DNA from: Pseudaquabacterium pictum
GTDB lineage: Bacteria > Pseudomonadota > Gammaproteobacteria > Burkholderiales > Burkholderiaceae_C
NCBI RefSeq assembly: GCF_005403045.1
Contig: NZ_BJCL01000001.1
Coordinates: forward strand, 248,001-312,000
Direction of reading: 5' to 3'
DNA: 64,000 nt
The notes under the pieces are model-generated. The model was not told the DNA's origin, searched no databases, and saw only the letters and a program-made list of their open reading frames with translations. The first letter of the stretch is position 1; each line of letters starts with the position of its first letter. Positions 39,608 through 56,951 of the stretch are shown here, in pieces. The translations under genes were made by a program, and so were the position numbers.

Positions 39608-40063
39608 TCAGGCCACCTCGGCGATCAGCTCGATCTCGACACAGGCGCCCATCGGGATCTGCGCCACGCCGAAGGCGCTGCGTGCATGGGCGCCGGCCGG
39701 GCCGAACAGCTCGCCGATCAGTTCCGACGCGCCATTGACCACCAGGTGGTGCTCGGTGAAGGTGGGCGCGCTGTTGACCAGGCCCAGCAGCTTGACGATG
39801 CGGGTCACCTTGTTCAGGTCGCCAACGGCGGCATGCAGCGTGCCCAGCAGGTCGATGGCGATGGCGCGCGCGGCGGTCTTGCCATCGGCGGTGACCATGT
39901 CGGTGCCCAACTGGCCCACCCAGGGCTTGCCCTCGCGCCTGGCGATGTGGCCCGACAGGAACACCAGGTTGCCGGTGCGCACGAAGGGCACATAGGCGGC
40001 AGCGGGCGTGGCCACGGGGGGCAGGCTGATGCCCAGGGCGGTGAGCTTGTCGTAGACGGACAT
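39608..40063 (-). CDS. RidA/YjgF-family protein
   Basis: This 151-residue protein has the RidA fold markers LVFLSGHIARREGKPWVGQLG in the middle and HARSAFGVAQIPMGACVEIE at the end, where the Arg of ARSAFG corresponds to the residue that binds the substrate carboxylate. RidA hydrolyses reactive 2-aminoacrylate and related imines; this longer variant belongs to a subgroup whose substrate may differ. It is co-directional with dsbB and divergent from comEC, which it faces across 52 bases. Confidence 0.88.
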   Translation of the reverse strand: MSVYDKLTALGISLPPVATPAAAYVPFVRTGNLVFLSGHIARREGKPWVGQLGTDMVTADGKTAARAIAIDLLGTLHAAVGDLNKVTRIVKLLGLVNSAPTFTEHHLVVNGASELIGELFGPAGAHARSAFGVAQIPMGACVEIELIAEVA

Positions 40064-40080
40064 GGCAGGTGTGCGGGGTT

Positions 40081-40109
40081 GGTTCAGGGGTGGGCGGCGA
40101 TCCTACACT
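40081..40109 (+). promoter_or_regulatory. Candidate comEC promoter giving a leaderless mRNA
   Basis: GGTTCA (40081-40086) and TACACT (40104-40109) are separated by 17 bases, the ideal spacing. Transcription would start about seven bases after the -10 box, exactly at the comEC ATG at 40116. There is no ribosome binding site before the ATG, which agrees with a leaderless message. Confidence 0.45.
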
Positions 40110-40115
40110 GGCCCC

Positions 40116-42581
40116 ATGGCAGCCGGCAGCATCGGGCACAGGGGCTGGCCGACCGGCCTGCAGGCCACCGGCTGGCTGGCCGTGGCCGCCGGCCTGGGCT
40201 GGCTGCTGGGTCTGGCGTGGCAGCTGCAGCAAACGGTGCTGTGGCCGCTGGCCACCTACCAGGGCTTGGTGGCGGTGGCGTTGCTGCTGGCGCTGGTGGC
40301 ACTGCGCTGGCAGCCTTGGCTGTGGCCGCTGGCGCTGGCGCTGCTGGCCCTGGGCAGCACCGGCTGGCGTGCCGATCAGCGGCTGGCCGAGCGCCTGCCC
40401 GCGGCGCTGGAGGGGCAGGATCTGCTGGTCACCGGCGTGGTGGCCAGCCTGCCGCAGACCGGGCCGGCCGGCACCCGCTTCCTGTTCGATGTCGAATCGG
40501 CCACCCGGCGCGGCCAGGCGGTGGCCTTGCCGCCCCGGCTGAGCCTGGGCTGGTACACCCAGTACAACGACGAGGCCTGGCTGGACGACCCGCGCGACGA
40601 GCTGCGTGCCGGCCAGCGCTGGCGCCTGCCGCTGCGGCTGAAGCGGCCGCAGGGCGGGCTCAATCCGCATGGCTTCGATGTCGAGCTGATGTGGTTCGAG
40701 CAGGGCGTGGGCGCCATCGGCTATGTGCGGGTGGTGCGCGGCTGGCAGCCGGCGCAGCTGCTGGCGGCCGATGCCGGCCACCCGGTCGACCGCCTGCGCC
40801 AGACCCTGCGCGACCAGTTGCAGCGCGCGGTGGCCGATCCGCGCAGCGCCGGCATGCTGGCCGCGCTGACGGTGGGCGACCAGGCCGCGATCGAGCGCGA
40901 CGACTGGGAGCTGTTCCGCACCACCGGCATCGCCCATCTTGTCTCGATCAGCGGCGTGCATGTGACCATGTTCGCCTGGCTGGCCGCCGCGGTGGCCGGC
41001 TGGGCTTGGCGCCGCAGCCCGCGCGCGATGGCCTGGCTGCCGACGCCCACCGCCGGCCGCTGGATCGGCCTGGCCGCGGCCACCGGCTATGCGCTGCTGG
41101 CCGGCTGGGGCGTGCCGGCCCAGCGCACGGTGCTGATGCTGGCGGTGGCCGTGGCCCTGCGCAGCGCCGGCTGGCGCTGGCCCTGGGCGCTGGTGCTGCT
41201 GGCCGCGGCGGTGGTGGTGACCGCGGTCGACCCCTGGGCGCTGCTGCAGCCGGGCTTCTGGCTGTCGTTCGCCGCGGTGGCACTGCTGATGGCCAGCGAG
41301 CCGATGGCCGGCGGGCCGGTGCCGGGCCGTGGCGCGGGCGGGCTGCTGGCTGGCCACCTGCGTGCCCAGGCGGTGGCCACGCTGGGGTTGGCGCCGCTGT
41401 CGCTGGTGTTCTTCCAGCAGTTCAGCCTGGTGGGGGTGCTGGCCAACCTGGTGGCCATTCCGTTGGTGACGCTGCTGATCACGCCGCTGGCCTTGCTGGG
41501 CATGCTGGTGCCGGGCCTGTGGTGGCTGGCCGCCGCCCTGGTGCAGGCGCTGCTGTGGGGCCTGGGCTGGCTGGCGCAGTGGCCGCTGGCGGTGTGGCAG
41601 GTGCCGGCTGCACCCGGATGGCTGGTGGCTGCCGCAGCCCTGGGCGCGGTGCTGGCGGTGCTGCCGGCGCCCTGGGCGCTGCGCTGGCTGGCCTTGCCGC
41701 TGGTGCTGCCGCTGCTGTGGCCGCCGCTGGACCGGCCGGCGCCGGGCCGCTTCAGCGTGCTGGCCGCCGATGTGGGGCAGGGCACGGCGCTGCTGTTGCG
41801 CACCCGCCACCACCTGCTGGTCTACGACACCGGGCCGCAGTATTCCCGCGAGAGCGATGCCGCCCAGCGGGTGCTGCTGCCGCTGCTGCGCGCCCGTGGC
41901 GAGGGTCCGATCGACCTGCTGGTGCTGAGCCACCGCGACATGGACCATGTCGGTGGCGCCGCCAGCCTGCTGGCGTCCCACCCGGTGAAGGCGCTCAACA
42001 GCTCGCTGGAGCCGGGCCATCCGCTGCTGGACCGCGGCGTGCCGCACACCCCTTGCCGCGCCGGCCAGTCCTGGGACTGGGACGGCGTGCAGTTCCGCAT
42101 GCTGCACCCTACGCCCGACGACGTGGCCTTTGCTGCCAAGCCGAATGCCGTGTCCTGCGTGCTGCGGGTGCAGGACGCGCTGGGCCGCAGCCTGCTGATC
42201 ACCGGCGACATCGAGGCACCGCAGGAGGCCGCGCTGCTGCGGCGCACCGGCGCGGCGCTGGCCAGCACCATGCTGGTGGTGCCCCACCATGGCAGCCGCA
42301 CCTCGTCGACCGCCGACTTCCTGGATGCGGTGCAGCCGCAGCTGGCGGTGGTGCAGGCCGCCTACCGCAGCCGCTTCGGCCATCCGGCGCCTGATGTGCT
42401 GGCGCGTTATGCCGAGCGCCGCATTGATGTGGTGCGTACGGATGGTTGCGGTGCATGGCTGTGGCACGATGGTGCGGCCGCATGCACCCGCGATGTGCGC
42501 CGCCGCTACTGGCACGCGGCCGCGCCCGTGGGTGGTGCGATTGTTGCTAACTCGTCAGGGCCAGGAGCCCCTTCCCCATGA
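40116..42581 (+). CDS. comEC: DNA internalisation competence protein ComEC/Rec2
   Basis: This 821-residue inner-membrane protein forms the channel that takes single-stranded DNA into the cytoplasm in natural transformation. It has an N-terminal DUF4131-like part (about 1-190) and a multi-helix competence domain (about 200-520, with HLVSISGVHVTMFAWLAA). A C-terminal metallo-beta-lactamase-like domain follows (about 540-800, with VLAADVGQGTALLL and LSHRDMDHVGG, the HxxDH metal motif). All domains look intact. Its stop overlaps the start of the ATP-grasp gene as ATGA, tying it to the cluster that follows. Confidence 0.94.
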   Translation: MAAGSIGHRGWPTGLQATGWLAVAAGLGWLLGLAWQLQQTVLWPLATYQGLVAVALLLALVALRWQPWLWPLALALLALGSTGWRADQRLAERLPAALEGQDLLVTGVVASLPQTGPAGTRFLFDVESATRRGQAVALPPRLSLGWYTQYNDEAWLDDPRDELRAGQRWRLPLRLKRPQGGLNPHGFDVELMWFEQGVGAIGYVRVVRGWQPAQLLAADAGHPVDRLRQTLRDQLQRAVADPRSAGMLAALTVGDQAAIERDDWELFRTTGIAHLVSISGVHVTMFAWLAAAVAGWAWRRSPRAMAWLPTPTAGRWIGLAAATGYALLAGWGVPAQRTVLMLAVAVALRSAGWRWPWALVLLAAAVVVTAVDPWALLQPGFWLSFAAVALLMASEPMAGGPVPGRGAGGLLAGHLRAQAVATLGLAPLSLVFFQQFSLVGVLANLVAIPLVTLLITPLALLGMLVPGLWWLAAALVQALLWGLGWLAQWPLAVWQVPAAPGWLVAAAALGAVLAVLPAPWALRWLALPLVLPLLWPPLDRPAPGRFSVLAADVGQGTALLLRTRHHLLVYDTGPQYSRESDAAQRVLLPLLRARGEGPIDLLVLSHRDMDHVGGAASLLASHPVKALNSSLEPGHPLLDRGVPHTPCRAGQSWDWDGVQFRMLHPTPDDVAFAAKPNAVSCVLRVQDALGRSLLITGDIEAPQEAALLRRTGAALASTMLVVPHHGSRTSSTADFLDAVQPQLAVVQAAYRSRFGHPAPDVLARYAERRIDVVRTDGCGAWLWHDGAAACTRDVRRRYWHAAAPVGGAIVANSSGPGAPSP

Positions 42582-44014
42582 AACCTTCCTTTGACGAAAT
42601 GCAGGCCGGTGCTGGCGCGGTCCGGCCGCACTACAGCGGCTTCGACCGCTGGCTGCAGCAGCAACCGCGTGAACTGATGGCCGCCCGCCGCGACGAGGCA
42701 GAAATGATCTTCCGCCGCGTCGGCATCACCTTCGCCGTCTACGGCGCCAAGGATGAGGACGGCGCCGGCACCGAGCGGCTGATTCCGTTCGATGTGATCC
42801 CGCGCATCATCCCCAGCGACGAGTGGGCCCGCATGCAGCAGGGCCTGGCCCAGCGGGTGGCGGCGCTCAACCGCTTCCTGCACGACGTGTACCACGACCA
42901 GGAGATCCTGAAGGCCGGCATCGTGCCCGCCGAGCAGGTGCTGAAGAACGCCCAGTTCCGGCCCGAGATGATGGGCGTGGACCTGCCGGGCCAGATCTAT
43001 TCGCACATTGCCGGCATCGACATCGTGCGCGCCGCGCAACCTGACGGCAGCGGCACCTACTACGTGCTGGAAGACAACCTGCGCGTGCCCAGCGGCGTGA
43101 GCTACATGCTCGAGAACCGCAAGATGATGATGCGGCTGTTCCCCGAGCTGTTCGCCCAGCACCGGGTGGCGCCGGTGGCGCATTACCCCGACCTGCTGCT
43201 GGAAACCCTGCGCGACGTGGCGCCGGCCGGCGTCAACGACCCGACCGTGGTGGTGCTGACGCCGGGCATGTACAACAGCGCCTACTTCGAGCATGCCTTC
43301 CTGGCCCAGCAGATGGGCGTGGAGCTGGTCGAGGGGCAGGACCTGTTCGTCAAGGACAACTTCGTCTACATGCGCACCACCCAGGGCCCACGCCGGGTGG
43401 ATGTGGTCTACCGCCGGGTGGACGACGACTTCCTCGACCCCAAGGCCTTCCGGCCCGACAGCACGCTGGGCTGCGCCGGCCTGCTGGATGTCTACCGCAA
43501 GGGCAACATCAGCCTGTGCAACGCCATCGGCACGGGCGTGGCCGACGACAAGTCGATCTACCCGTATGTGCCGAAGATGGTGGAGTTCTACCTCGGCGAG
43601 AAGCCGATCCTGGAGAACGTGCCCACCTACCTGTGCCGCGAGAAGGACGATCTGCAGTACGTGCTGGACCACCTGCCCGAGCTGGTGGTGAAGGAAGTGC
43701 ACGGCGCCGGCGGCTACGGCATGCTGGTGGGCCCGGCCAGCACCAAGGCCGAGATCGCCGAGTTCCGCGAGGTGCTGCTGGCCCGACCCAGCAACTACAT
43801 CGCCCAGCCCACGCTGGCACTCAGCACCACGCCCACCTTCGTGGAAAGCGGCGTGGCGCCGCGCCACATCGACCTGCGGCCCTTCGTGCTGACGGGCAAG
43901 AACGTGCAGATGGTGCCGGGCGGCCTGACCCGGGTGGCTTTGAAGGAGGGCTCGCTGGTGGTCAACAGCAGCCAGGGCGGTGGCACCAAGGACACCTGGG
44001 TGCTGGAAGCCTGA
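42578..44014 (+). CDS. Circularly permuted type 2 ATP-grasp protein
   Basis: This 478-residue protein is the stand-alone ATP-grasp ligase of the cluster. ATP-grasp enzymes form amide-type bonds through an acyl-phosphate. Markers of the permuted family are VVVLTPGMYNSAYFEHAFLA, VDVVYRRVDDDFLDPKAF and ISLCNAIGTGVADDKSIYPY. Lys372 in VVKEVHGAGGYGM and Asp/Arg of HIDLRPFVL are consistent with nucleotide binding, so it should be active. The substrate is unknown. It starts inside the comEC stop, and the alpha-E gene follows after 20 bases. Comparative genomics groups this family with alpha-E, transglutaminase and amidoligase genes as a predicted peptide-synthesis or tagging system. Confidence 0.9.
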   Translation: MKPSFDEMQAGAGAVRPHYSGFDRWLQQQPRELMAARRDEAEMIFRRVGITFAVYGAKDEDGAGTERLIPFDVIPRIIPSDEWARMQQGLAQRVAALNRFLHDVYHDQEILKAGIVPAEQVLKNAQFRPEMMGVDLPGQIYSHIAGIDIVRAAQPDGSGTYYVLEDNLRVPSGVSYMLENRKMMMRLFPELFAQHRVAPVAHYPDLLLETLRDVAPAGVNDPTVVVLTPGMYNSAYFEHAFLAQQMGVELVEGQDLFVKDNFVYMRTTQGPRRVDVVYRRVDDDFLDPKAFRPDSTLGCAGLLDVYRKGNISLCNAIGTGVADDKSIYPYVPKMVEFYLGEKPILENVPTYLCREKDDLQYVLDHLPELVVKEVHGAGGYGMLVGPASTKAEIAEFREVLLARPSNYIAQPTLALSTTPTFVESGVAPRHIDLRPFVLTGKNVQMVPGGLTRVALKEGSLVVNSSQGGGTKDTWVLEA

Positions 44015-44034
44015 CAACGAGGGAACACGACAAC

Positions 44035-44991
44035 ATGCTTTCGCGAACCGCTGACCACCTGTTCTGGATGAGCCGCTACATGGAGCGGGCCGAGAACACC
44101 GCCCGCATGCTGGATGTGAACTACCAGACCTCGCTGCTGCCGCAGTCGGCCGACCGGGCCGAAGAAGGCTGGGCCGGCGTGCTGGGCATCTCGGAGCTGA
44201 CCTGGTCGTTCAACCAGAAGCACGACGCGGTGACCGCCGCCAATGTCATGGATTTCATGGTGCGCGACGCCAGCAACCCGTCGTCCATCGTCTCCTGCCT
44301 GCATGCGGCGCGCGAGAACGCCCGCGCGGTGCGCGGCACCCTGACCACCGAGCTGTTCGAGACCACCAACCAGACCTGGCTGGAGTTCAACCGCATGCTC
44401 AAGGGCGACGACTTCGAGCGCGACCCGGCGGCGCTGTTCGAATGGGTGAAGTTCCGCTCTCACCTGAGCCGCGGCGTCAGCGTGGGCACGATGCTGCAGG
44501 ATGAATCGCTGCACTTCATCCGCATCGGCACCTTCCTGGAGCGGGCCGACAACACCGCCCGCCTGCTGGACGTGAAGTTCCATGCCCTGGCCGGCGACTA
44601 CTTCGGCACCTGGGCCGACGACAGCGCGCCCGAGGTCGACTTCTACCACTGGAGCGCGATCCTCCGATCGGTCTCCGGCTTCGAGATCTACCGCAAGGTC
44701 TACCGCAACGTGATCCGGCCCGACAAGGTGGCCGAGCTGCTGATCCTGCGGCCCGACATGCCGCGCTCGCTGGCCGCCTGCATGAACGAGGTGATGGCCA
44801 ATCTCGACCTGGTGGCCAACGAGCAGAGCGCCGAGACCCGCCGCCGCGCCGGCCGCCTGCGCAGTGACCTGCAGTTCGGCCGCATCGACGAGATCCTGGC
44901 CACCGGCCTGCATGCCTTCCTCACCCAGTTCCTGGACCGCGTCAACGACATCGGCGCCGGCATCAGCCGCGATTTCCTCGTCCCGGCCTGA
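44035..44991 (+). CDS. Alpha-E domain protein
   Basis: This 318-residue, almost wholly helical protein starts with the family signature SRTADHLFWMSRYMERAENTARML and repeats a related LHFIRIGTFLERADNTARLLD half-way, as if built from two related helical units. Alpha-E proteins have no proven activity but occur almost always with circularly permuted ATP-grasp proteins, either as neighbours or fused, so they probably act as partner or carrier-binding subunits. GAGGGA lies nine bases before the ATG. A fused copy is present 6 kb downstream. Confidence 0.88.
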   Translation: MLSRTADHLFWMSRYMERAENTARMLDVNYQTSLLPQSADRAEEGWAGVLGISELTWSFNQKHDAVTAANVMDFMVRDASNPSSIVSCLHAARENARAVRGTLTTELFETTNQTWLEFNRMLKGDDFERDPAALFEWVKFRSHLSRGVSVGTMLQDESLHFIRIGTFLERADNTARLLDVKFHALAGDYFGTWADDSAPEVDFYHWSAILRSVSGFEIYRKVYRNVIRPDKVAELLILRPDMPRSLAACMNEVMANLDLVANEQSAETRRRAGRLRSDLQFGRIDEILATGLHAFLTQFLDRVNDIGAGISRDFLVPA

Positions 44992-45050
44992 ATCCTGTCT
45001 CGCAGGCGACAATGCTGCAACGCAGCATCGCAAGCCATTGAAAGCACACC

Positions 45051-48000
45051 GTGTCGATCCACGTCGCCCTGAACCACGTCACCCACTACAAGTACGACCG
45101 CCGGGTGAGCATGTCGCCGCACATCGTGCGCTTGCGTCCGGCGCCGCACTGCCGCAGCAACATCCTGAGCTACAGCCTGAAGGTCGAGCCCGAGGGCCAC
45201 TTCATCAACTGGCAGCAGGATGCCTTCGCCAACTACCTGGCGCGGCTGGTGTTCCCCGAGCCGGCCACCGAGTTCAAGGTGACGGTGGACCTGGTGACCG
45301 AGATGTCGGTCTACAACCCCTTCGACTTCTTCCTGGAGCCGGAGGCGGAGAACTTCCCGTTCGCCTACGACGAACCCACCAAGCTGGAGCTGCAGCCCTA
45401 CCTGGTGACCGAGCCGGCCACGCCGGCGTTTGCCAAGTTCCTGGCCACGATCGACCGGAAAGAACAGCGCACCATCGATTTCCTGGTCGCCATCAACCAG
45501 CGGCTGCAGGGCGACATCCGCTACCTGATCCGCATGGAGCCGGGCGTGCAGACGCCGGAGCAGACGCTGACCCTGGGCAGCGGCAGCTGCCGTGACAGCG
45601 GCTGGCTGCTGGTGCAGACGCTGCGCCACATGGGCCTAGCGGCGCGCTTCGTCTCCGGCTACCTGATCCAGCTGAAGAGCGATGTGAAGGCGCTGGACGG
45701 TCCCAGCGGCACCGAGGTCGACTTCACCGACCTGCACGCCTGGTGCGAGGTGTTCCTGCCCGGTGCCGGCTGGATCGGGCTGGATCCCACCTCCGGCCTG
45801 CTGGCCGGCGAGGGCCACATCCCCGTGGCCTGCACGCCCACGCCCGGCAGCGCGGCGCCGATCAGCGGCGCCATCGACGAGTGCGAGGTGGCGTTCTCCC
45901 ACCACATGCAGATCAGCCGCATCTGGGAATCGCCGCGCGTCACCAAGCCCTACACCGATGCGCAGTGGCAGCAGGTGCTGACCCTGGGCGAGCAGGTCGA
46001 TGCGCAGCTGGATGCTGGCGATGTGCGGCTGACCATGGGCGGCGAGCCCACCTTCGTCAGCGTGGACGACCGCGACGGCGCCGAGTGGAACACCGATGCC
46101 CTGGGCCCGACCAAGCGGCTGTTCGCCACTGACCTGACCAACCGCCTGCGCGAGCACTATGCCCAGGGCGGCTTCCTGCACTTCGGCCAGGGCAAGTGGT
46201 ACCCGGGCGAGCAGCTGCCGCGCTGGGCGCTCAGCATCTGCTGGCGCGCCGATGGTGAACCCTGCTGGCACGATCCCAAGCTGTTCACCGACGAGCGCTA
46301 CCCCACCCACTACACCAGCGCCGATGCCAAGGCCTTCATGTCGGCCCTGTGCGCCCGCCTGGGCGTGACCGACACCCATGTGCAGACCGGCTACGAGGAC
46401 ACCTGGTACCACCTGTGGCGCGAGCGCCGGCTGCCGGTCAACGTCGATCCGTTCGAATCCAAGCTCGAGGACGAGATGGAGCGCATCCGCCTGCGCCGCG
46501 TCTTCGACCAGGGGCTGGAGTACCCGGTGGGCTATGCGCTGCCGCTCAAGCGCAGCGATGGGCTGGATGGCGTGCCGGCCCTGGAAGGCAGCCGCTGGCA
46601 GACCGGCCCGTGGTTCTTCCGCGACGAGCGCATGTACCTGCACCCCGGTGATTCACCGATGGGTTACCGCCTGCCGCTGGACAGCCTGCCCTGGGTGAAG
46701 ACCACCGAGTACCCGTACCACATCGAGAGCGACCCCTTCGCGCCGCGCGATGCCCTGCCGGCCGCCGCGGCCATCCGCAGCCAGTACGCCGCGCATGTGA
46801 TCGGCGGCGGCTTCGCCGAGGGTGGCGTGGTGGCGCTGCAGGCCAAGGGCGGCAGTGCTGGCGGTGATGCAGGCGACGGCATCCTGGGCGCCGGTGGCGC
46901 CATGGCCGGTCTGGCCGGGCGGGGTGCTGCCGCCGGCAAGGGCAGCGGTGCCAGCATCAGCACGCTGGACCCGACCCGCAGCCCCAGCCGCGGTGAATCC
47001 GCACACTGGATCACCCGCACCGCCCTGGTGGTGGAAGTGCGCGACCCGCGCCGCGCCAACGGCCCCAAGGCCGAGGCCGTGGGCAGCCCCAGCGGCGTGA
47101 TGTACGTCTTCATGCCGCCGCTCAAGCAACTGGAAGACTACCTGGAGCTGCTGGCCGCGGTGGAAGCCACGGCCGCCGCCCAGGGTGTGACCATCGTGCT
47201 GGAAGGCTATCCGCCACCGCGCGACCCGCGGCTGAAGGTGCTGGCCATCACCCCCGACCCCGGCGTCATCGAGGTCAACATCCACCCCGCCAGCAACTGG
47301 ACCGAGCTGGTCGAGCACACCGAATTCCTCTACGACGCGGCCTGGCTGTCCCGCCTGTCCACCGAGAAGTTCATGCTCGACGGCCGCCACACCGGCACCG
47401 GCGGCGGCAACCACTTCGTGATGGGCGGCGCGCGCCCAGCCGACAGCCCCTTCCTGCGCCGGCCCGACGTGCTGGGCAGCCTGCTGGCCTACTGGCACAA
47501 CCACCCCAGCCTGAGCTATTTGTTCAGCGGCCTGTTCATCGGCCCCACCAGCCAGGCGCCGCGGGTCGATGAAGCGCGCAACGACCAGCTCTACGAGCTG
47601 GAGATCGCCCTCGGCGAGATCGAGAAGAACAAGGCGGTCTACGGCCAGCAGATGCCGCCCTGGCTGGTCGACCGCACGCTGCGCAACATCCTGGTCGACA
47701 TCACCGGCAACACCCACCGCAGCGAGTTCTGCATCGACAAGCTGTACTCGCCCGACAGCGCCACCGGCCGCCTGGGCCTGCTGGAGCTGCGCGCCTTCGA
47801 GATGCCGCCGCATGCGCGCATGTCCATCGTGCAGCAGCTGCTGCTGCGGGCGCTGGTGGCCCGCTTCTGGAACGAGCCGTACCGACACGAACTGGTGCGC
47901 TGGGGCACCGAGCTGCATGACCGCTTCCTGCTGCCGCATTTCGTCTGGCAGGACTTCGGCCATGTGATGGAGGAAATGGGCGAGGCCGGTTTCGGCTTCG

Positions 48001-48575
48001 ACGCCGCCTGGTTCGCGCCGCACTTCGAATTCCGCTTCCCCAAGGTGGGCGAGCTCACTGCCGAGGGCGTGCACCTGCAGCTGCGCAGCGCGCTCGAGCC
48101 CTGGCATGTGATGGGCGAGGAAGGATCGAGCGGCGGCACGGTGCGCTATGTCGATTCATCGGTCGAGCGCATCGAGGTCCTGGTCAGCGGCCTGGTCAAC
48201 CCACGCCATGTGCTCACCTGCAACGGCGTGCCCGTGCCGCTGCAGCCCACCGGCCGCACCGGCGAGTTCGTCGCCGGCGTGCGCTACCGCGCCTGGCTGC
48301 CGCCCAGCGCGCTGCACCCGTCCATCGGCATCGACGCGCCGCTCACCTTCGACCTGGTCGACACCTGGATGCAGCGCAGCCTGGGTGGCTGCCAGTACCA
48401 CGTCACCCATCCGGGCGGCCGCAGCTACGAGACCTTCCCGATCAACGCCTTCGAGGCCGAGAGCCGGCGGCTGGCGCGCTTCTTCACCATCGGCCACACG
48501 CCCGGCAAGATGGTGGTCGGCAAGCCGGTGCGCAGCCTGGAGTTCCCGTTCACGCTGGACCTGCGCACGGCCTGA
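45051..48575 (+). CDS. Transglutaminase-like protease fused to a DUF2126 amidoligase-like domain
   Basis: This 1174-residue protein has two parts. Residues about 1-290 are a bacterial transglutaminase-like cysteine peptidase with an N-terminal beta-domain and a complete triad: Cys180 ([10 protein letters not shown]), His229 (DLHAWCEV) and Asp245 (GLDPTSG). Residues about 320-1174 match DUF2126, a family predicted to be a glutamine-synthetase-like carboxylate-amine ligase, with [20 protein letters not shown] at its start. A Gly/Ala-rich, probably unstructured insert occupies about 583-644. One chain thus pairs a peptide-bond cutter with a predicted peptide-bond maker. The start is GTG at 45051 with only a weak ribosome binding site. 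Confidence 0.88.
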
Positions 48576-48659
48576 CGGCCGTGTCCAGCCGCTGCTGACC
48601 CGCGTTCACAGGGGATGGGCCCAAGCGAAAAGCCCCCGCTTCCCGGGCATGATGGCGGG

Positions 48660-51320
48660 ATGCAAAGCAGTCTGCTGGCCGACGACGATCTGCCCGACGC
48701 CGCCAGCCTGGTGGCGTCGGTGGCGCAGCGCGCCACGCCTGGCCATTTCGATGAGTGGTGCGCCTCGGTCTCGGGCACGGCCAGCGCGGCCGGCCACCTG
48801 CCGGCGCCGCACTGGCGGCAGTTCTTCGACACCCTGGGCACCGAAGGCTGGGCCGACCTGGGCGCCCGTGCGCAACGGGTGCAGGCCCGGGTGCGCGAAG
48901 ACGGCGCCACCTACAACATCTATGCCGAGGGGGTGGATGCGCCACGCGCCTGGCCGCTGGAGCTGCTGCCGTTCATCGTGCCGGCCGATGAGTGGGCGCA
49001 GATCGAGGCCGGCGTCACCCAGCGCGCCCGGTTGATGGCCGCCACGCTGGCCGACATCTACGGCCCGCAGACCCTGCTGCGCGATGCACTGCTGCCGGCC
49101 AGCCTGATCTTTGCCCATCCGCACTACCTGCGGCCGGCCTGCGGCCTGTGGCCGGCCGAGCGCTGCGGCCTGCACATCGCCGCCTTCGACCTGGCGCGCA
49201 CGCCCGAGGGCGGCTTCCGGGTGCTGTCGCAGCGGCTGCAGGCGCCGTCGGGCCTGGGCTACCTGCTGGAGAACCGGCTGATCATCGGCCCGCAGTTCCA
49301 CGACCAGTTTGCCGACCTGCGGGTGCAGCGCCTGGCCGGCACCTTCCGCAGCCTGCTCGACGGACTGGTGCGCGCCAGCCCGGCCGGCGAGCGCAGCCGC
49401 ATCGTGCTGCTGACGCCTGGCCCGCTGAACGAAACCTACTTCGAGCAGGTGTTCCTGGCCCGCTACCTGGGGGTCACTCTGGTCGAGGGCAGCGACCTGA
49501 CGGTGCGCGGCAAGAAGCTGTTCCTCAAGACCCTGCACGGCCTGGAGCAGGTGCATGTGCTGCTGCGCCGGGTGGACGATGAATTCCTCGATCCGCTGGA
49601 GCTGCGGCCCGACAGCCAGCTGGGCGTGCCCGGCCTGCTGCAGGCGCTGCGCGCCGGCGAGGTGGTGATGGCCAACGCCCCCGGCGCCGGCGTGCTGGAA
49701 AGCCCCGGCCTGGCCGCCTTCTGGCCCGGTGTGGCCGAGCGCCTGCTGGGCGAGGACCTGCTGTTGCCGGCCTCCACCAGCTGGTGGTGCGGCGAATCCG
49801 CCGTGTGGAGCCGCCAGCGTGACGACCTGGCCAGCTTCGTGGTGGCGCCCACCTTCCCCGACAGCGGCTTCGGCCCGCGGGTGGCCGCGCTGATGGGCGA
49901 GGCCGAGCGCCGCGCGCTGCGCGACCGCATCGACGCCGACCCCGCCGCCTACACCCTGCAGGCCCGGGTGCGGCCCAGCGAGACGCCGGTGTGGGGCCAT
50001 GGCAGCGCCGACAGCGCCAGCCCCGGCGGCCAGCTGCACCCGCGGGCCGCGGTCATGCGGGTGTTTGCGCTGGCCGACGGGCAGGGTGGCTGGCAGGTGC
50101 TGCCTGGCGCGCTGACCCGCGTGGCCAACCGCAGCGGCCAGCAGCCCGGCAGCGCGCACGACCCCTGGCTGAGCATGCAGCACGGCAGCGCCAGCGTCGA
50201 CACCTGGGTGATCGCCAGCGGCGCGGTCGACAAGAGCACGCTGCTGCCCAAGCCGCTGACCGCCGATGAACTGGGCGGCGTGCACCGGGCGGTGAGCAGC
50301 CGCGCCGCCGAGAACCTGTTCTGGCTGGGCCGCTACACCGAGCGGGCCGAGAACTCGGTGCGCCTGGTGCGGCTGATGCTGGAGATGCTGCGCGAGGGCA
50401 GCGAGCCGGTGTTGCGCCTGCTCGACCGGCTGGCCCGCTTCCACGGCCTGGTGGGCGCCGGCGTGCCGGGCGTGCTGAAGGCGCCGCGGGTGTTCGAGCG
50501 GGCGTTGATCCACGGCCTGCTGCCGCGCGGCCACGGCGCGCCGGTGGATGCCAGCATCGGCGGGCCGATGTACGGCCCCACAACCAGCGTGGCCCACAAC
50601 CTGCGCAGTCTGCGCCAGTGCGCCCAGGCCCTGCGCGAGCGGCTGTCGCCCGAGCACTGGAAATTGATCCACGAGGTGGGCGACCATTTCGAGCAGCACC
50701 TGGGCGTGGTGCTGTCGCTGGGCGAGGGCCATGCGCCGGTGCCCGATGTGCTGGGCGTGCTGGGCCGCGCCACCACCCACCTGGCGGCCATCACCGGCGC
50801 CCAGACCGACCGCATGACCCGCGACGACGGCTGGCGCCTGCTCAGCGTGGGCCGGCAGATCGAACGGCTGGACATGCTGTCGCATGCGCTGGGCCTGGGC
50901 TTCGAGCTGAAGGTGCACGAGGCCGACGACGGCTTCCACCTGCTGCTGGGCATGTTCGACAGCGTGATCACCTACCGCGCCCAGTTCCAGGGCCGGCGCG
51001 AGGTGCTGCCGCTGCTGCACCTGCTGGCCATGGACACCGACAACCCGCGCAGCCTGGCCTGGGTGGCCCGCACCATGCGCGACCGCCTGCGCAAGCTGGC
51101 CCGGCATGACCCGCTGTGGGTGCACCAGGTCACCCGCGACCTGCCCATGCCCGAGGACTGGCTGCTGGCCCGCATGGCGCGTGCCGACGACAAGGGCCGC
51201 CACACCGAGCTGATCGAGGCCCTGCGTGCCTGCAGCACGGCCGCGCGTGGCCTGTCGGACCAGATCAGCCGCCACCTCTTCGCGCATGTGGAATCGCGCG
51301 ACCGCACGGTGTGGCAATGA
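48660..51320 (+). CDS. Circularly permuted ATP-grasp fused to an alpha-E domain
   Basis: This 886-residue protein joins in one chain what the two upstream genes encode separately. Residues about 1-530 are the ATP-grasp part (IVLLTPGPLNETYFEQVFLA, VLLRRVDDEFLDPLEL) and about 545-886 the alpha-E part (SSRAAENLFWLGRYTERAEN). The ATP-grasp core is divergent: where the stand-alone paralogue has VVKEVHGAGGYGM this one has VVAPTFPDSGFG, so Ala396 sits at the expected Lys position, and the Asp of HIDLRPF is replaced in AAVMRVF. It may therefore be inactive or use a different mechanism. The start at 48660 is preferred over an in-frame ATG at 48615. The next gene overlaps its stop as ATGA. Confidence 0.88.
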   Translation: MQSSLLADDDLPDAASLVASVAQRATPGHFDEWCASVSGTASAAGHLPAPHWRQFFDTLGTEGWADLGARAQRVQARVREDGATYNIYAEGVDAPRAWPLELLPFIVPADEWAQIEAGVTQRARLMAATLADIYGPQTLLRDALLPASLIFAHPHYLRPACGLWPAERCGLHIAAFDLARTPEGGFRVLSQRLQAPSGLGYLLENRLIIGPQFHDQFADLRVQRLAGTFRSLLDGLVRASPAGERSRIVLLTPGPLNETYFEQVFLARYLGVTLVEGSDLTVRGKKLFLKTLHGLEQVHVLLRRVDDEFLDPLELRPDSQLGVPGLLQALRAGEVVMANAPGAGVLESPGLAAFWPGVAERLLGEDLLLPASTSWWCGESAVWSRQRDDLASFVVAPTFPDSGFGPRVAALMGEAERRALRDRIDADPAAYTLQARVRPSETPVWGHGSADSASPGGQLHPRAAVMRVFALADGQGGWQVLPGALTRVANRSGQQPGSAHDPWLSMQHGSASVDTWVIASGAVDKSTLLPKPLTADELGGVHRAVSSRAAENLFWLGRYTERAENSVRLVRLMLEMLREGSEPVLRLLDRLARFHGLVGAGVPGVLKAPRVFERALIHGLLPRGHGAPVDASIGGPMYGPTTSVAHNLRSLRQCAQALRERLSPEHWKLIHEVGDHFEQHLGVVLSLGEGHAPVPDVLGVLGRATTHLAAITGAQTDRMTRDDGWRLLSVGRQIERLDMLSHALGLGFELKVHEADDGFHLLLGMFDSVITYRAQFQGRREVLPLLHLLAMDTDNPRSLAWVARTMRDRLRKLARHDPLWVHQVTRDLPMPEDWLLARMARADDKGRHTELIEALRACSTAARGLSDQISRHLFAHVESRDRTVWQ

Positions 51321-52297
51321 GCGATCAAGCGCCCGCCGCTGCACCTGCGCACGCCCAGTCGCAGAGCCAGGGCCCGGCGCCGCTGCCGCCGGCCCAGCGG
51401 CGCCCGCCGGCGCCCGGCCACCGCCTGCTGCAGGTGACCCACGAGACCTGCTACGACTACGACGCGGCGGTGGAGGTGGCCCACCACAGCGCCTGGCTGC
51501 GCCCGCGCGACACCGAGGTGCAGAAGGTGCAGCGCTGGGACCTGGAGATCGACCCGCTGCCCGAAAGCGCGGTGCAGGAGAGCAAGGACGCCTTCGGCAA
51601 CTGGCGCCATGGCTTCAGCCATTCCCGGGTGCATGACCGGCTCACCGTCACCAGCCGCTTCCAGGTGCTGATGACCGCGCCGCCCGCGCTGGACGACGCC
51701 CACAGTCCGCCCTGGGAAGAGGCTGCGGCGGCACTGCGCTACCGCGCCGGCGTCACCCAGCCCGAGGCGGTGGAATTCGTGTTGCCCAGCCAGTTTGCGC
51801 AGCATGCGCCCGAGCTGGCGGCCTATGCCCGCGACCTGTTCACCCCCGGCCGGCCGCTGCTGCAGGGCGCGCAGGCGCTGATGGCCCGGGTCTACGAGCG
51901 CATGCAGTACAAGCCCCACAGCACCGATGTGGCCACCAGCGCGCTGCAGGCGCTGGCCCAGGGGCAGGGCGTCTGCCAGGACTTCGCCCACCTGATGATC
52001 GCCGCGCTGCGCAGCCTGGGCCTGGCCGCGCGTTATGTCAGCGGCTACCTGCTGACGCACCCGCCCGAAGGCCAGCCCCGCCTGGTGGGCGCCGATGCCA
52101 GCCATGCCTGGGTGGCGGTGTGGTGCCCGCTGCACCGCTGGGTGGCGCTGGACCCGACCAACAACGTCCGCGTGGGGCAGGACCATGTCACCCTGGCCTG
52201 GGGCCGCGACTATGCCGACGTGGCACCGCTGCGCGGCGTGATCCGTGGCGGCGGCACGGCGCCGCCGTCGGTGGGCGTGACGGTGGAGCCGGTCTAG
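51317..52297 (+). CDS. Transglutaminase family protein (second copy)
   Basis: This 326-residue protein has a Pro/Ala/Gln-rich start (about 1-36), a beta-rich N-terminal domain (LLQVTHETCYDYDAAVEVAHHSAWL) and a transglutaminase-like core with Cys220 (GQGVCQDFAHLM), His263 (ASHAWVAVW) and Asp279 (ALDPTNN), all intact. Proteins of this type usually act as cysteine peptidases rather than cross-linkers. It lacks the DUF2126 part of its larger paralogue. The overlap with the previous gene implies coupled translation. No signal peptide is visible, so it should act in the cytoplasm. Confidence 0.9.
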   Translation: MSDQAPAAAPAHAQSQSQGPAPLPPAQRRPPAPGHRLLQVTHETCYDYDAAVEVAHHSAWLRPRDTEVQKVQRWDLEIDPLPESAVQESKDAFGNWRHGFSHSRVHDRLTVTSRFQVLMTAPPALDDAHSPPWEEAAAALRYRAGVTQPEAVEFVLPSQFAQHAPELAAYARDLFTPGRPLLQGAQALMARVYERMQYKPHSTDVATSALQALAQGQGVCQDFAHLMIAALRSLGLAARYVSGYLLTHPPEGQPRLVGADASHAWVAVWCPLHRWVALDPTNNVRVGQDHVTLAWGRDYADVAPLRGVIRGGGTAPPSVGVTVEPV

Positions 52298-53376: not shown

Positions 53377-54252
53377 TTGGCCATCGTGCAACTGTTGATC
53401 TCGGGCATCTCGCTCGGGTGCATCTATGCGCTGATCGCGCTGGGCTTCGTGCTCATCTACAAGGCCACCGAGACCGTCAACTTCGCCCAGGGCGAGCTGA
53501 TGATGCTGGGTGCCTTCGGCGGCCTGGTGATGATGACCATCTTCGGCTGGTCGTTCTGGCTGGCCGCGCCGCTGGCGGTGGTGCTGATGTTCTTCATGGG
53601 CATCGGCCTGGAGCGGGCGGTCATCCGGCCCATCCTGGGCCAGCCGCAGTTCACCGTGGTGATGCTGACCATCGGCGTGGGCTACACCGCCCGCGGCCTG
53701 ATCTCGATGATCCCGGAGATCGGCACCGAGACCCACACCCTGCCGGTGCCCTACGCCGGCCAGGTACTCAACGTCGGCGGCGCGGTGATCAGCCTGGAGC
53801 AGGTGGCCGTGATCGGCATGACGGCGGTGCTGTGCCTGGTGCTGTACCTGATGTTCCGGTACACCAAGCTGGGCATTGCCATGCAGGCGGCCTCGCAGAA
53901 CCAGCTGGCGGCCTACTACATGGGCATCCCGGTGCGGCGCATCAACGGCCTGGTGTGGGGCCTGTCGGCGGCGGTGGCGGCCATTGCCGGCCTGCTGCTG
54001 GCGCCGGTCACCTTCGTGCACGCCAACATGGGCTTCATCGGCCTGAAGGCCTTTCCGGCGGCGGTGGTGGGCGGCTTCGGCAGCCTGCCGGGCGCCATCG
54101 TCGGCGGCCTGGTGATCGGCCTGGTGGAGGCCTTCGCCGGGTTCTACCTGCCCGAGGGCTTCAAGGACATCGCCGCCTACGTGGTGGTGCTGATCATGCT
54201 GGTGGTCAAGCCGAACGGCCTGTTCGGCGGCGCGATGCGCAAGAAGGTCTGA
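53377..54252 (+). CDS. Branched-chain amino acid-type ABC permease (LivH family)
   Basis: This 291-residue permease has about eight membrane helices and the LivH markers SLGCIYALIALGFVLIYKAT, TVNFAQGELMMLGAF and FPAAVVGGFGSLPGAIVGG. LivH/LivM pairs import amino acids, amides or aromatic and other carboxylates. The start is TTG at 53377, fixed by AGGAG at 53366-53370. It opens a five-gene run with livM, livG, livF and an acyl-CoA ligase. No periplasmic binding protein gene is in the run. Confidence 0.9.
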   Translation: MAIVQLLISGISLGCIYALIALGFVLIYKATETVNFAQGELMMLGAFGGLVMMTIFGWSFWLAAPLAVVLMFFMGIGLERAVIRPILGQPQFTVVMLTIGVGYTARGLISMIPEIGTETHTLPVPYAGQVLNVGGAVISLEQVAVIGMTAVLCLVLYLMFRYTKLGIAMQAASQNQLAAYYMGIPVRRINGLVWGLSAAVAAIAGLLLAPVTFVHANMGFIGLKAFPAAVVGGFGSLPGAIVGGLVIGLVEAFAGFYLPEGFKDIAAYVVVLIMLVVKPNGLFGGAMRKKV

Positions 54253-54255
54253 GCC

Positions 54256-55332
54256 ATGCGATTCATCTTCAAGACCGACTACGCGCAAGACCTGCAGATC
54301 GTCAAGCACAGCGGCCAGGCCTTCTGGTACGGGCTGCTGATGGCCGCCATGCTGGCTGCGCCGCTGTGGGCCGGCGACTACTGGCTGTCGCAGATCAGCT
54401 TCGTGCTGATCTATGCGGTGGCCGGCCTGGGGCTGATGGTGCTCTCGGGCTTCACCGGCCTGGCCTCCATCGGCCACGCCGCCTTCCTGGGCGTGGGCGC
54501 CTATGTGCAGGCAGTGCTGTCGGCCAAGGGCTGGCCGTTCCCGGTCACCATGGCCATGGCCGCCGGCCTGAGCGCCGCGGTGGGCGTGGTGGTGGGCCTG
54601 CCGGCACTGCGGGTCAAGGGGATCTACCTGGCGATTGCCACGCTGAGCTTCGGCTTCATCGTCGAGGAAGTTCTGGCCCGCTGGGAAAGCGTGACCAAGG
54701 GCAATGCCGGCATGAGCGTCACATCGCCGCAGTTCTTCGGTGCCGATCTGGCCAGCAGCGAGGCCTTCTACTACATCGCCCTGGGCACCACGGTGCTCGT
54801 CACCCTGGGCGTGCTGAACCTGCTGCGCAGCGCCACCGGCCGTGCCTTCATCGCCATCCGCGACAGCGAGATCTCGGCCCAGAGCATGGGCATCCACCTG
54901 GCGGGCTACAAGACGCTGGCGTTTGCGTTGAGCGCGGCCATCGTCGGCCTGGCGGGCGCCCTGTATGCCCACAAGCTGCGCTTCATCTCGCCCGACCAGT
55001 TCGGCATCGTGCAGAGCGTGGACCTGCTGCTGCTGGTGGTGGTGGGCGGCGTGGGCAGCGTGCACGGCGCCTTCCTGGGCGCGATCTTCCTGATCACCAT
55101 GCCGCAGCTGATCGCTCTGGGCAAGGACTACCTGCCGCCGGCCATCGGCCAGGCCGCCGGCCTGCAGGCGGTGGTGTACGGCGTGGTGCTGATGGCCTTC
55201 GTGCTGTTCGAGCCGCATGGCCTGTACGGCCGCTGGCTGAAGGTGCGCACCTGGCTGCAGCTGTTCCCGTTCTACCGCAAGGGCATGTTCAAGCGGCAGA
55301 AGTCGTATGCCAAGTCTGAACGCCTGAAGTGA
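54256..55332 (+). CDS. Branched-chain amino acid-type ABC permease (LivM family)
   Basis: This 358-residue partner permease has the LivM markers GLGLMVLSGFTGLASIGHAAFLG and GIYLAIATLSFGFIVEEV, about nine membrane helices, and a long cytoplasmic C terminus rich in Lys and Arg. RAFIAIRDSEISAQSMGI is the loop contacting the ATPase. It starts three bases after livH and its stop overlaps the livG start as TGATG. Confidence 0.9.
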   Translation: MRFIFKTDYAQDLQIVKHSGQAFWYGLLMAAMLAAPLWAGDYWLSQISFVLIYAVAGLGLMVLSGFTGLASIGHAAFLGVGAYVQAVLSAKGWPFPVTMAMAAGLSAAVGVVVGLPALRVKGIYLAIATLSFGFIVEEVLARWESVTKGNAGMSVTSPQFFGADLASSEAFYYIALGTTVLVTLGVLNLLRSATGRAFIAIRDSEISAQSMGIHLAGYKTLAFALSAAIVGLAGALYAHKLRFISPDQFGIVQSVDLLLLVVVGGVGSVHGAFLGAIFLITMPQLIALGKDYLPPAIGQAAGLQAVVYGVVLMAFVLFEPHGLYGRWLKVRTWLQLFPFYRKGMFKRQKSYAKSERLK

Positions 55333-56153
55333 TGCCGACCATGAGCGACACCAACTCCACCCCCTTGCTCAGCGCCCGCGACCTGAGCGTGCGCTTCGGC
55401 GGCGTGCTGGCCGTCAACAAGGTCAGCTTCGACGTGCAGCGCGGCGAGGTCTTCACCCTGATCGGCCCCAACGGCGCGGGCAAGACCACGGTGTTCAACC
55501 TGATCAGCCGCATCTACACGCCCACCACCGGCACGCTGCACTTCGAGGGCCAGCTGCTCTCTGACAAACCGCCGCACGACATCGCCGCGCTGGGCATCGC
55601 CCGCACCTTCCAGAACATCGAGCTGTTCGAGAACGCCACGGTGCTGCAGAACCTGCTGATCGGCCACCACATCCACCGCGGCGCCGGCTTCTGGAGCAAC
55701 CTGTTCTTCACCAAGGCGACGCGCCAGGCCGAGCTGGCCGCCCGGTTGCGGGCCGAGCAGGTGATCGAGCTGCTGGACCTGCAGCACTACCGCGACACCT
55801 TCGTCGCCGGCCTGCCATACGGGAAGCGGAAGGTCGTCGAACTGGCCAGAGCGCTGTGCACCGGCCCCAAGCTGCTGCTGCTGGACGAGCCCTCATCGGG
55901 CCTGAACGTGGAGGAAACCTCGGACATGGCCTGGTGGATCCACGACATCAAGAACGAGCTGGGCATCACCGTGTTGATGGTCGAACACGACATGAGCCTG
56001 GTCTCGCGCGTGTCCGACCGGGTGCTGGCCATGAACCAGGGCGAGGTGCTGGCCCTGGGCACGCCGGCCGAGGTGCAGAGCCACCCGGGCGTGATCGAGG
56101 CCTACCTGGGCTCGGTGGACGATGTGTCGAGCCTGCGGAGGAAGGCAGCATGA
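55332..56153 (+). CDS. ABC transporter ATPase (LivG family)
   Basis: This 273-residue ATPase has Walker A GPNGAGKTT, the LivG-type signature LPYGKRKVVELARAL, Walker B LLLLDEPSSGLN and the switch His in VEHDMSLV. It energises the permease pair. Starts at 55332 and 55341 are both possible; I use 55332 because it overlaps the livM stop. The following livF gene begins inside its stop codon (ATGA). Confidence 0.92.
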   Translation: MPTMSDTNSTPLLSARDLSVRFGGVLAVNKVSFDVQRGEVFTLIGPNGAGKTTVFNLISRIYTPTTGTLHFEGQLLSDKPPHDIAALGIARTFQNIELFENATVLQNLLIGHHIHRGAGFWSNLFFTKATRQAELAARLRAEQVIELLDLQHYRDTFVAGLPYGKRKVVELARALCTGPKLLLLDEPSSGLNVEETSDMAWWIHDIKNELGITVLMVEHDMSLVSRVSDRVLAMNQGEVLALGTPAEVQSHPGVIEAYLGSVDDVSSLRRKAA

Positions 56154-56935: not shown

Positions 56936-56951
56936 CCCAGGAGCAACACCG

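Follow-up and report, generated by a model that had tools for sequence, protein, structure and literature searches.

A two-module ATP-grasp, alpha-E, transglutaminase and amidoligase cluster in Pseudaquabacterium pictum with a predicted nitrogen-starvation-type promoter

Proteins of the ATP-grasp, alpha-E and transglutaminase families, in some cases together with DUF2126 and Anbu, are said to form systems of peptide synthesis or modification that Iyer et al. predicted in 2009. Those systems and the locus described here have the same protein families, and in both the genes are adjacent and co-occur with Anbu. Here, two modules lie in one run, the fused pair is degenerate and Anbu is encoded elsewhere, which may set this locus apart. 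The prediction is cited in the available text of PMC5666114 and PMC6376114. The ATP-grasp protein of Yersinia bercovieri releases phosphate from ATP, and for the Anbu of the same operon neither peptidase activity nor a specific interaction with any other protein of that operon was found, according to the accessible part of that work (PMC6376114). In the portions available to us, the literature on these families gives no substrate or product, and no activity for alpha-E, DUF2126 or these transglutaminases.

Expression data come from two other species, in each case from the accessible part of the source. Genes PP2685-2687 of P. putida are induced by nitrogen limitation (PMC3325844); PP_2686-2688 rose 11- to 15-fold in the wild type and still 14- to 20-fold in an rpoN mutant, which argues against strict sigma54 dependence in P. 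putida, and the Anbu gene PP_2685 changed only 1.12-fold in the wild type (PMC7801951). Homologous genes of a B. cenocepacia ntrC mutant gave log2 values of -8.2, -9.4, -9.4 and -6.0 and are named common sigma54/NtrC targets (PMC5491218). For alpha-, beta- and gamma-Proteobacteria, a predicted sigma54 regulon already includes COG3484, the proteasome-type protease (PMC12316311), so that control of Anbu by sigma54 has been proposed before.

Here we analysed a window of 64,000 nucleotides of the P. pictum genome and compared its cluster with these systems. As far as the available text describes them, the Anbu operons of P. putida (PP_2685-2688) and Y. bercovieri contain a transglutaminase and Anbu, and that of Y. 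bercovieri shares ATP-grasp and alpha-E with our locus; that text mentions neither DUF2126 nor a fused ATP-grasp/alpha-E gene, and Anbu lies inside the operon, unlike here. The strongly NtrC-dependent B. cenocepacia genes I35_5080-5083 likewise encode a DUF404/407 protein, a DUF403 protein and two transglutaminase-domain proteins, but the published table, in the part seen, holds no fused ATP-grasp/alpha-E gene (PMC5491218).

Gene content and distribution of the two modules

Five neighbouring genes occupy positions 42578-52297 of the window, all on the + strand, and Pfam profiles placed all five in the CP_ATPgrasp, alpha-E, transglutaminase and DUF2126 families that the sequence-only reading had named. 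Module I consists of a circularly permuted ATP-grasp amide ligase (42578..44014, 478 amino acids; PF14403, CP_ATPgrasp_2, E 1.8e-168) and an alpha-E protein (44035..44991, 318 amino acids; PF04168, E 3.7e-94; scanned as 44053-44991, with the first ATG at 44035). Module II begins with a fusion of a transglutaminase-like cysteine peptidase and a putative amidoligase (45051..48575, 1174 amino acids), which matches PF08379 (Bact_transglu_N), PF01841 (Transglut_core) and PF09899 (DUF2126, E 0). It continues with a fused, degenerate ATP-grasp and alpha-E gene (48615..51320, 901 amino acids, or 886 from the alternative ATG at 48660; PF14403, CP_ATPgrasp_2, E 2.1e-134, and PF04168, Alpha-E, E 4.3e-55), and ends with a stand-alone transglutaminase-like cysteine peptidase (51317..52297, 326 amino acids; PF01841, E 3.4e-24, and PF08379, E 2.8e-22), scanned as 51314-52297, the start of which, at ATG 51317, overlaps the fused gene in the motif ATGA. 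The earlier description of a doubled cluster is better replaced by that of two separate modules brought together, side by side.

On the 5' side lies comEC (40062..42581, + strand; TIGR00361), which is the 5' neighbour in many close relatives and is not thought to belong to the amide-ligase system. On the 3' side, four genes at 53386-56935 were considered as a urea transporter and rejected: liv models give the higher score for three of them and UrtB for the fourth, and all four fall below the curated cut-offs of both the liv and the urt sets.

Alpha-E was found in 83 of 150 genomes of the order and in 115 of 199 genomes of the phylum. Within the 150 order genomes, DUF2126 never occurs without alpha-E (51/51 DUF2126 genomes) and Anbu is present in 77 of the 83 alpha-E genomes. 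The CP-ATP-grasp and alpha-E genes are adjacent in the window and in order neighbourhoods. Modules I and II are found again in relatives, where each is rearranged as a whole, rather than standing in scattered neighbourhoods; both are carried by 48 of 53 loci of at least 18 kb from named relatives, a set that comprises the best 80 of at least 594 confirmed and may overlap the order genomes. Beyond the system genes, only two neighbourhood groups have more than 8 members, the range that was annotated, with groups named by eye: a loose group of ABC-ATPases (15) and one resembling comEC (9). Genes in neighbourhoods were called by a home-made, homologue-seeded caller with approximate starts. Before counting, we left out ATP-grasp proteins of 430 amino acids or fewer, fused genes encoding less than about 800 amino acids and loci with less than 200 bp upstream, and removed duplicates by identical sequence ends. 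Fisher tests of co-occurrence, of leader and follower positions and of E165/N167 loss treat non-independent loci as independent.

Conserved residues, the fused gene and Anbu

Of 79 family sequences, at least 97% share the same residue in each of 135 columns, and the module I ligase keeps all 135. Its only close solved relative is 3n6x (E 1.5e-223), annotated as a putative glutathionylspermidine synthase. The alpha-E protein is all-helical in its AF2 model (pLDDT 91.9), which matched no solved fold at E <= 0.001; the best match in a profile search of solved structures was a designed bundle (E 0.009), the others being weaker, and a fold relative was rejected on this threshold.

Both transglutaminase-like proteins carry the Cys-His-Asp triads ascribed to them earlier, and these are kept across homologues (48/48; and 60/61, 60/61 and 61/61). 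The triad C180/H229/D245 of the DUF2126 fusion is invariant in 28 of 28 sequences, and that of the second protein lies in the motifs VCQDF, SHAWV and LDPTN; the transglutaminase domain of the fusion resembles 3isr, which the second protein matches at E 2.5e-11. For DUF2126 itself, Foldseek matches to glutamine synthetase and glutamate-cysteine ligase are weak (E 0.3-0.7, on a model of pLDDT 71) and include gamma-glutamyl-methylamide synthetase; a sequence-profile comparison with glutamine synthetase chains gave no match.

The fused gene differs from its module I counterpart. Its product matches its families over the full length, and family-invariant residues of the ATP-grasp part are lost in 25 of 25 homologues: E165, N167, K325, G378, D432 and N463 are retained in none of the 25 and G381 in one, with K372 and D148 retained in 22 each and R280 in all 25. 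In a further count, E165 and N167 are retained in 0 of 38. We take the invariant residues to be tied to catalysis; because they are lost, the fused ATP-grasp is probably an inactive pseudo-ligase. Both ligase/alpha-E pairs of the sequence-only reading thus match their families, but the count of two is overstated because the fused pair is degenerate. Mapping of GspS catalytic residues by sequence was abandoned, as 3n6x was the sole PDB entry matched by the ATP-grasp profile, and the loss is therefore expressed as family-invariant columns. Among the matches listed in a literature search on pseudoenzymes, permuted ATP-grasp, transglutaminase and alpha-E, no report of a degenerate fusion was found.

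Anbu is absent from the window, as had been stated, but not from the genome: a profile of 26 Anbu proteins identified a full-length gene product of 274 amino acids on a different contig (G000:C3:151137-151874), with a best E of 5.9e-90 against solved Anbu chains. This overturned the absence suggested by a Pfam proteasome search, in which PF00227 did not detect Anbu and had HslV, beside HslU, as its sole match in the genome. Placement of Anbu in the same cluster, not the case here, is common but not universal among order neighbourhoods. A class-III aminotransferase gene adjoins the solo Anbu gene, an arrangement identified in this genome only.

Promoter-type elements upstream of module I

Regulation is the main new evidence of this analysis. 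A sigma54-type -24/-12 element, TGGTGCGATTGTTGCT, lies at 42533..42548 on the + strand, inside the end of comEC, and ends 29 bp 5' of the first gene. The pattern TGGYRYRNNNNTTGCW has 38 matches in the 6.1-Mb genome, the 42533 element among them, compared with 14 for a reversed control. Sigma54 elements were scored with hand-written weights, and NtrC-like sites with a hand-written consensus. An aligned element is present at 5 of 6 same-family loci. In the order, such elements precede the module I ATP-grasp gene at 64 of 79 loci and are missing from 15, compared with 53 of 614 other genes and with 6/81 alpha-E, 9/62 stand-alone transglutaminase, 9/62 Anbu and 2/24 fused genes. Among the named relatives (best 80 of at least 594; L211 was left out because its upstream sequence was too short, hence 79), the element is found at 77 of 79 loci, in 76 of these 30-90 bp before the ATP-grasp start, against a shuffled fraction of 0.108 and 1 of 79 alpha-E genes. 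Elsewhere in the same best 80 of at least 594 it was found at 10/56 CPATPg2, 1/57 DUF2126 and 2/52 alphaE2 genes. Before the transglutaminase-DUF2126 gene, it occurs in 32 of 42 cases in which this gene leads a unit and in 1 of 62 in which it follows module I. In other classes of the phylum, sampled as hand-picked loci (40 stretches from the 115 positive genomes, with 3 own-family stretches among them and one genome sampled twice), 10 of 20 loci carry it. Upstream of the solo Anbu gene of P. pictum, the best sigma54 score is 9.4, too low for a good element. Both rpoN and ntrC are encoded in the genome. On this comparative evidence, we predict that the 42533 element is a conserved, nitrogen-starvation-type promoter.

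Two NtrC-like sites precede it on the + strand, GCATTGATGTGGTGC at 42421..42435 and GCACCCGCGATGTGC at 42484..42498, each with 9 of 10 consensus positions. Both lie inside the 3' part of comEC, and their conservation is confounded because they are in coding sequence; several close relatives have sites resembling that at 42484, also in coding sequence. NtrC-like sites occur 5' of homologous ATP-grasp genes at 39 of 79 order loci compared with 44 of 610 other genes, and in the named relatives (best 80 of at least 594) at 46 of 79, against 0.093 for shuffled sequence and 1 of 79 for the alpha-E control. In the same best 80 of at least 594, they also precede alphaE2, within the fused coding sequence, in 16 of 52 cases against 0.094 shuffled, so NtrC-like matches can be coding artefacts. 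An exact composite pattern of NtrC and sigma54 sites has no match in the whole genome, and only 2 of the 20 loci from other classes have NtrC-like sites. The NtrC-like enrichment is less clean than that of the sigma54 element.

Possible functions of the cluster

The earlier assignment to the predicted ATP-grasp, alpha-E, transglutaminase and amidoligase peptide systems proved right, and we see an even chance that the cluster is a nitrogen-starvation amide-ligation system of this kind. When ammonium is exhausted, NtrC bound upstream would activate sigma54 polymerase at 42533, and the five genes would be transcribed as a single unit. The NtrC data from B. cenocepacia are consistent with this, and those from P. 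putida are mixed. The module I ligase, judged by its superfamily, would convert a carboxylate to an acyl phosphate and join it to an amine, with alpha-E presenting one of the substrates. DUF2126, by its family and weak fold match, may be a second, glutamine-synthetase-like amidoligase, and the fused protein most likely provides a scaffold for the active ligases or regulates them. The two transglutaminase-like enzymes and Anbu would hydrolyse or transfer the amide products, from which nitrogen or amino acids would be recovered. Proteins, peptides and small amines are all candidates for the ligated object; we slightly favour a tag that is attached to peptides or proteins and taken off again.

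Gamma-glutamyl-polyamine and gamma-glutamyl-methylamide synthetases acylate amines, and salvage of small-molecule amines or amides, with no protein tagged, is a possible though unlikely alternative: the ligases would acylate the amine, and the transglutaminase-like enzymes and Anbu would deacylate it after removal of nitrogen. Control of the NtrC-sigma54 type suits nitrogen scavenging, the annotation of 3n6x and the weak fold matches of the DUF2126 fusion to gamma-glutamyl-methylamide synthetase and glutamate-cysteine ligase point the same way, and marine metagenome networks connect DUF403/404/407 to urea domains in the available part of PMC3597751. However, the neighbour groups of more than 8 members, as named by eye, include no oxidase or transaminase partner, and the aminotransferase beside the solo Anbu gene was seen in this one genome only.

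PafA of the Pup system is a glutamine-synthetase-like ligase, and the ATP-grasp, alpha-E and transglutaminase proteins are not known to have a counterpart in the Pup-proteasome system. The actinobacterial system, with its proteasome-family peptidase and a role in nitrogen limitation in the accessible part of PMC8223512, is a parallel in how it works only. We consider it doubtful, yet worth stating, that the two modules and the trans-encoded Anbu form a proteobacterial nitrogen-starvation tagging system of pupylation-like logic, built from an ATP-grasp ligase, a glutamine-synthetase-like amidoligase, cysteine peptidases and a proteasome relative, in which the degenerate fusion would select what is tagged and recycled.

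Amidoligases are known in peptide natural-product pathways, and under nitrogen shortage the cluster might produce a peptide metabolite for secretion or modify the cell envelope. Exopolysaccharide changes are also given in the available part of the B. cenocepacia ntrC study (PMC5491218). We nevertheless regard this explanation as improbable, as no precursor-peptide or secretion gene stands out among neighbour groups of more than 8 members, although the loose ABC-ATPase group is present at 11 loci. A cyanophycin-like store of nitrogen or carbon, a polymer that the ligases would build and the peptidases degrade, would account for two ligase families and hydrolase-like enzymes at one locus, but is very improbable, as nitrogen starvation would be an ill-suited moment to build up a nitrogen reserve. 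That two unrelated modules lie side by side by chance is just as hard to credit: they occupy separate loci in many order genomes, in varying order and orientation, but DUF2126 always accompanies alpha-E, most long loci of the named relatives carry both modules, and the same promoter type precedes each when it heads a unit, so that a conserved promoter tracking the head gene ties the modules together.

For the amide-ligation reading that we prefer, the nitrogen-starvation-type promoter points to a condition in which to seek the product, and the probable pseudo-ligase and the trans-encoded Anbu alter which deletions and reconstitutions make sense. Alpha-E systems are widespread, in the order and across the phylum.

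Families and arrangement of the cluster

The five plus-strand genes at 42578-52297, in a window of 70% GC, follow comEC directly with short gaps and comprise two modules. Module I is a CP-ATP-grasp ligase and an alpha-E protein, here without its own transglutaminase or Anbu; directly after it, module II comprises a transglutaminase (TG)-DUF2126 protein, a fused ATP-grasp/alpha-E protein and a stand-alone transglutaminase. Assigned by the sequence-only reading to the ATP-grasp, alpha-E, transglutaminase and DUF2126 families, all five genes were placed there by Pfam with scores far above cut-off, and the cluster firmly belongs to a known, uncharacterised kind of system.

The genome is of Burkholderiales type, near Aquabacterium and Ideonella: among the matches listed, the top named match of the module I ATP-grasp comes from a Burkholderiaceae MAG (99% over the protein); the solved protein 3n6x is a close relative of this ligase, and 3isr matches the second transglutaminase. 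The first domain of the TG-DUF2126 structure model (moderate, pLDDT 71.4) also matches 3isr (E about 1e-12), and glutamine-synthetase-type chains match this model only weakly (E 0.3-0.7). The alpha-E model is confident and all-helical (pLDDT 91.9); structure comparison found no similar solved fold at E ≤ 0.001. An inverted repeat, ATGCTGC-AAC-GCAGCAT, with perfect 7-bp arms and no T run, lies between alpha-E and TG-DUF2126 (45012-45028). Downstream of the cluster (53386-58880) are an acyl-CoA ligase gene and branched-chain-amino-acid-type ABC transporter genes, the latter under the urea-transporter cut-offs.

Across 104 stretches with gene tables, some sharing one genome, module I contains ATP-grasp and alpha-E, often with a transglutaminase and often with Anbu; module II contains TG-DUF2126, the fused gene and a transglutaminase, and module I is also paired with TG-DUF2126 without the fused gene. 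Close relatives carry both modules together, often next to comEC, in either order or divergently; in one relative (L188), module II genes flank module I on both sides. A module II gene lies near module I in 48 of 53 named-relative loci of ≥18 kb, drawn from the best 80 of at least 594 relatives. Within 150 genomes of the same order, alpha-E (PF04168) is present in 83, including all 51 that carry DUF2126 (PF09899), and Anbu in 79 (one a weak partial match); the two co-occur in 77, whereas 6 carry alpha-E alone, 2 carry Anbu alone and 65 lack both.

The absence of Anbu noted in the sequence-only reading holds for the cluster in the window and not for the genome. The single match to the Pfam proteasome model is HslV, adjoining HslU; searching the genome with a profile built from relatives' Anbu proteins (26 sequences) recovered a full-length Anbu gene on another contig (G000:C3:151137-151874). 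Its matches to solved Anbu chains range from E 5.9e-90 to 9.4e-61. No good sigma54-type element was found upstream of this solo gene (best score 9.4). All three same-family genomes among the 150 carry Anbu, each time apart from alpha-E. In the genome under study, the solo Anbu is preceded on the same strand, at a distance of 61 bp, by a GSAM-like class-III aminotransferase gene (L108:6937-8187) that scores under the NCBIfam cut-offs. Six second Anbu genes of order genomes (L120-L125) are also apart from alpha-E, five of them near a transglutaminase gene; one in-frame stop was flagged within matches of this type.

The fused ligase

Both ligase/alpha-E pairs anticipated from the sequence match their families, and the fused pair lacks family-conserved residues. 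In 79 module I ATP-grasps, 135 columns reach ≥97% conservation; 83 of these are each retained in half or more of the 25 fused ATP-grasps. E165, N167, K325, G378, D432 and N463 are retained in none of the 25, G381 in 1, D166 in 16, K372 and D148 in 22 each and R280 in all. In the window's copy, E165, D166, N167 and K372 are replaced by S, Q, R and A, D432 by V and N463 by S, while D148, R280, G379 and G381 are intact; among 38 close-relative fused homologues, E165 and N167 are retained in none and K372 in 6. In the alpha-E part, R18, R24, R100 and R170 persist in 24-25 of the 25 sequences, E17 in 23; E94, N95 and E109 persist in none, D172 and R176 in 1, R93 in 3 and N112 in 11. The window's fusion has R93 and D172.

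Judged from these residues, the second ligase looks inactive. A scaffold or regulatory role is the simplest reading, as the family match is retained over the full length; there is some chance of altered activity instead, because residues are partly retained. None of the papers listed in our literature search, which did not cover the founding paper on such systems, treats a degenerate ATP-grasp/alpha-E fusion.

A predicted sigma54-type promoter

A match to the -24/-12 pattern, TGGTGCGATTGTTGCT, stops 29 bp short of the cluster's first ATG. Across the 6.1-Mb genome there are only 38 matches to TGGYRYRNNNNTTGCW, versus 14 for a reversed control pattern. Scored with hand-written weights, an element (score ≥12.5) lies upstream of the module I ATP-grasp gene in 64 of 79 order loci (missing in 15), versus 53 of 614 other called genes. 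Among 79 scannable named relatives (best 80 of at least 594), 77 have it, in 76 of the 77 at 30-90 bp before the start, versus 0.108 in shuffled sequence and 1/79 for the alpha-E gene; the loci in these counts are non-independent. Outside the order, it occurs in 13 of 17 loci of the same class and 10 of 20 elsewhere in the phylum. The element is at the same place in five of six aligned same-family loci and absent there in L080; conservation among close relatives is confounded because, in the window, the element and the NtrC-like sites lie inside the coding end of comEC, although most relatives with module II before the ATP-grasp gene also keep the element.

The strongest internal test of the promoter claim is gene position. 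Of the TG-DUF2126 genes heading their own unit, 32 of 42 (18/20 in relatives, 14/22 in order loci) have an element no more than 160 bp away; of those following a module I gene, 1 of 62 does (1/36 and 0/26), the relatives again being drawn from the best 80 of at least 594. In the window, TG-DUF2126 falls among the followers and lacks an element, consistent with a single transcription unit for the five genes. A conserved sigma54-type promoter is, on these sequence comparisons, well supported.

Probable nitrogen control and possible function

NtrC-like sites (9/10 or better matches to a hand-written consensus) lie upstream of the module I ATP-grasp gene in 39 of 79 order loci versus 44 of 610 other genes, in 46 of 79 named relatives (best 80 of at least 594) versus 0.093 in shuffled sequence, and, outside the order, in 9 of 17 loci of the same class and 2 of 20 from the rest of the phylum. 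The NtrC part of the case is weaker than the sigma54 part, because sites are also enriched upstream of the fused gene's alpha-E part, inside coding sequence (16/52 versus 0.094 shuffled). No site in the genome matches an exact composite of the NtrC and sigma54 patterns. The genome encodes ntrC (over the equivalog cut-off) and rpoN, the latter with two Sigma54_DBD matches (G000:C10:63539 and G000:C12:61967).

In Burkholderia cenocepacia, loss of ntrC lowers expression of I35_5080-83 (DUF404/407, DUF403 and two transglutaminase-domain proteins) by log2 6.0 to 9.4; these genes are named among common sigma54/NtrC targets (PMC5491218). Nitrogen limitation raises PP_2686-2688 11- to 15-fold in wild-type Pseudomonas putida, attributed to NtrB/NtrC, and still 14- to 20-fold in an rpoN mutant, in which urtA-D likewise rise 7- to 17-fold; Anbu (PP_2685) changes 1.12-fold in the wild type (PMC7801951). 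In a second P. putida study, the first of two comparisons shows PP2685-2687 up 6.6- to 11.1-fold (PMC3325844). COG3484 proteasome-type protease was already named in a 2025 survey of the sigma54 regulon (PMC12316311). The Yersinia bercovieri ATP-grasp releases phosphate from ATP; that study detected no peptidase activity for Anbu and found it to have no specific interaction with the other operon proteins (PMC6376114).

Nitrogen control of the cluster is likely, and tagging and amine salvage are the two live readings of what the system may do.
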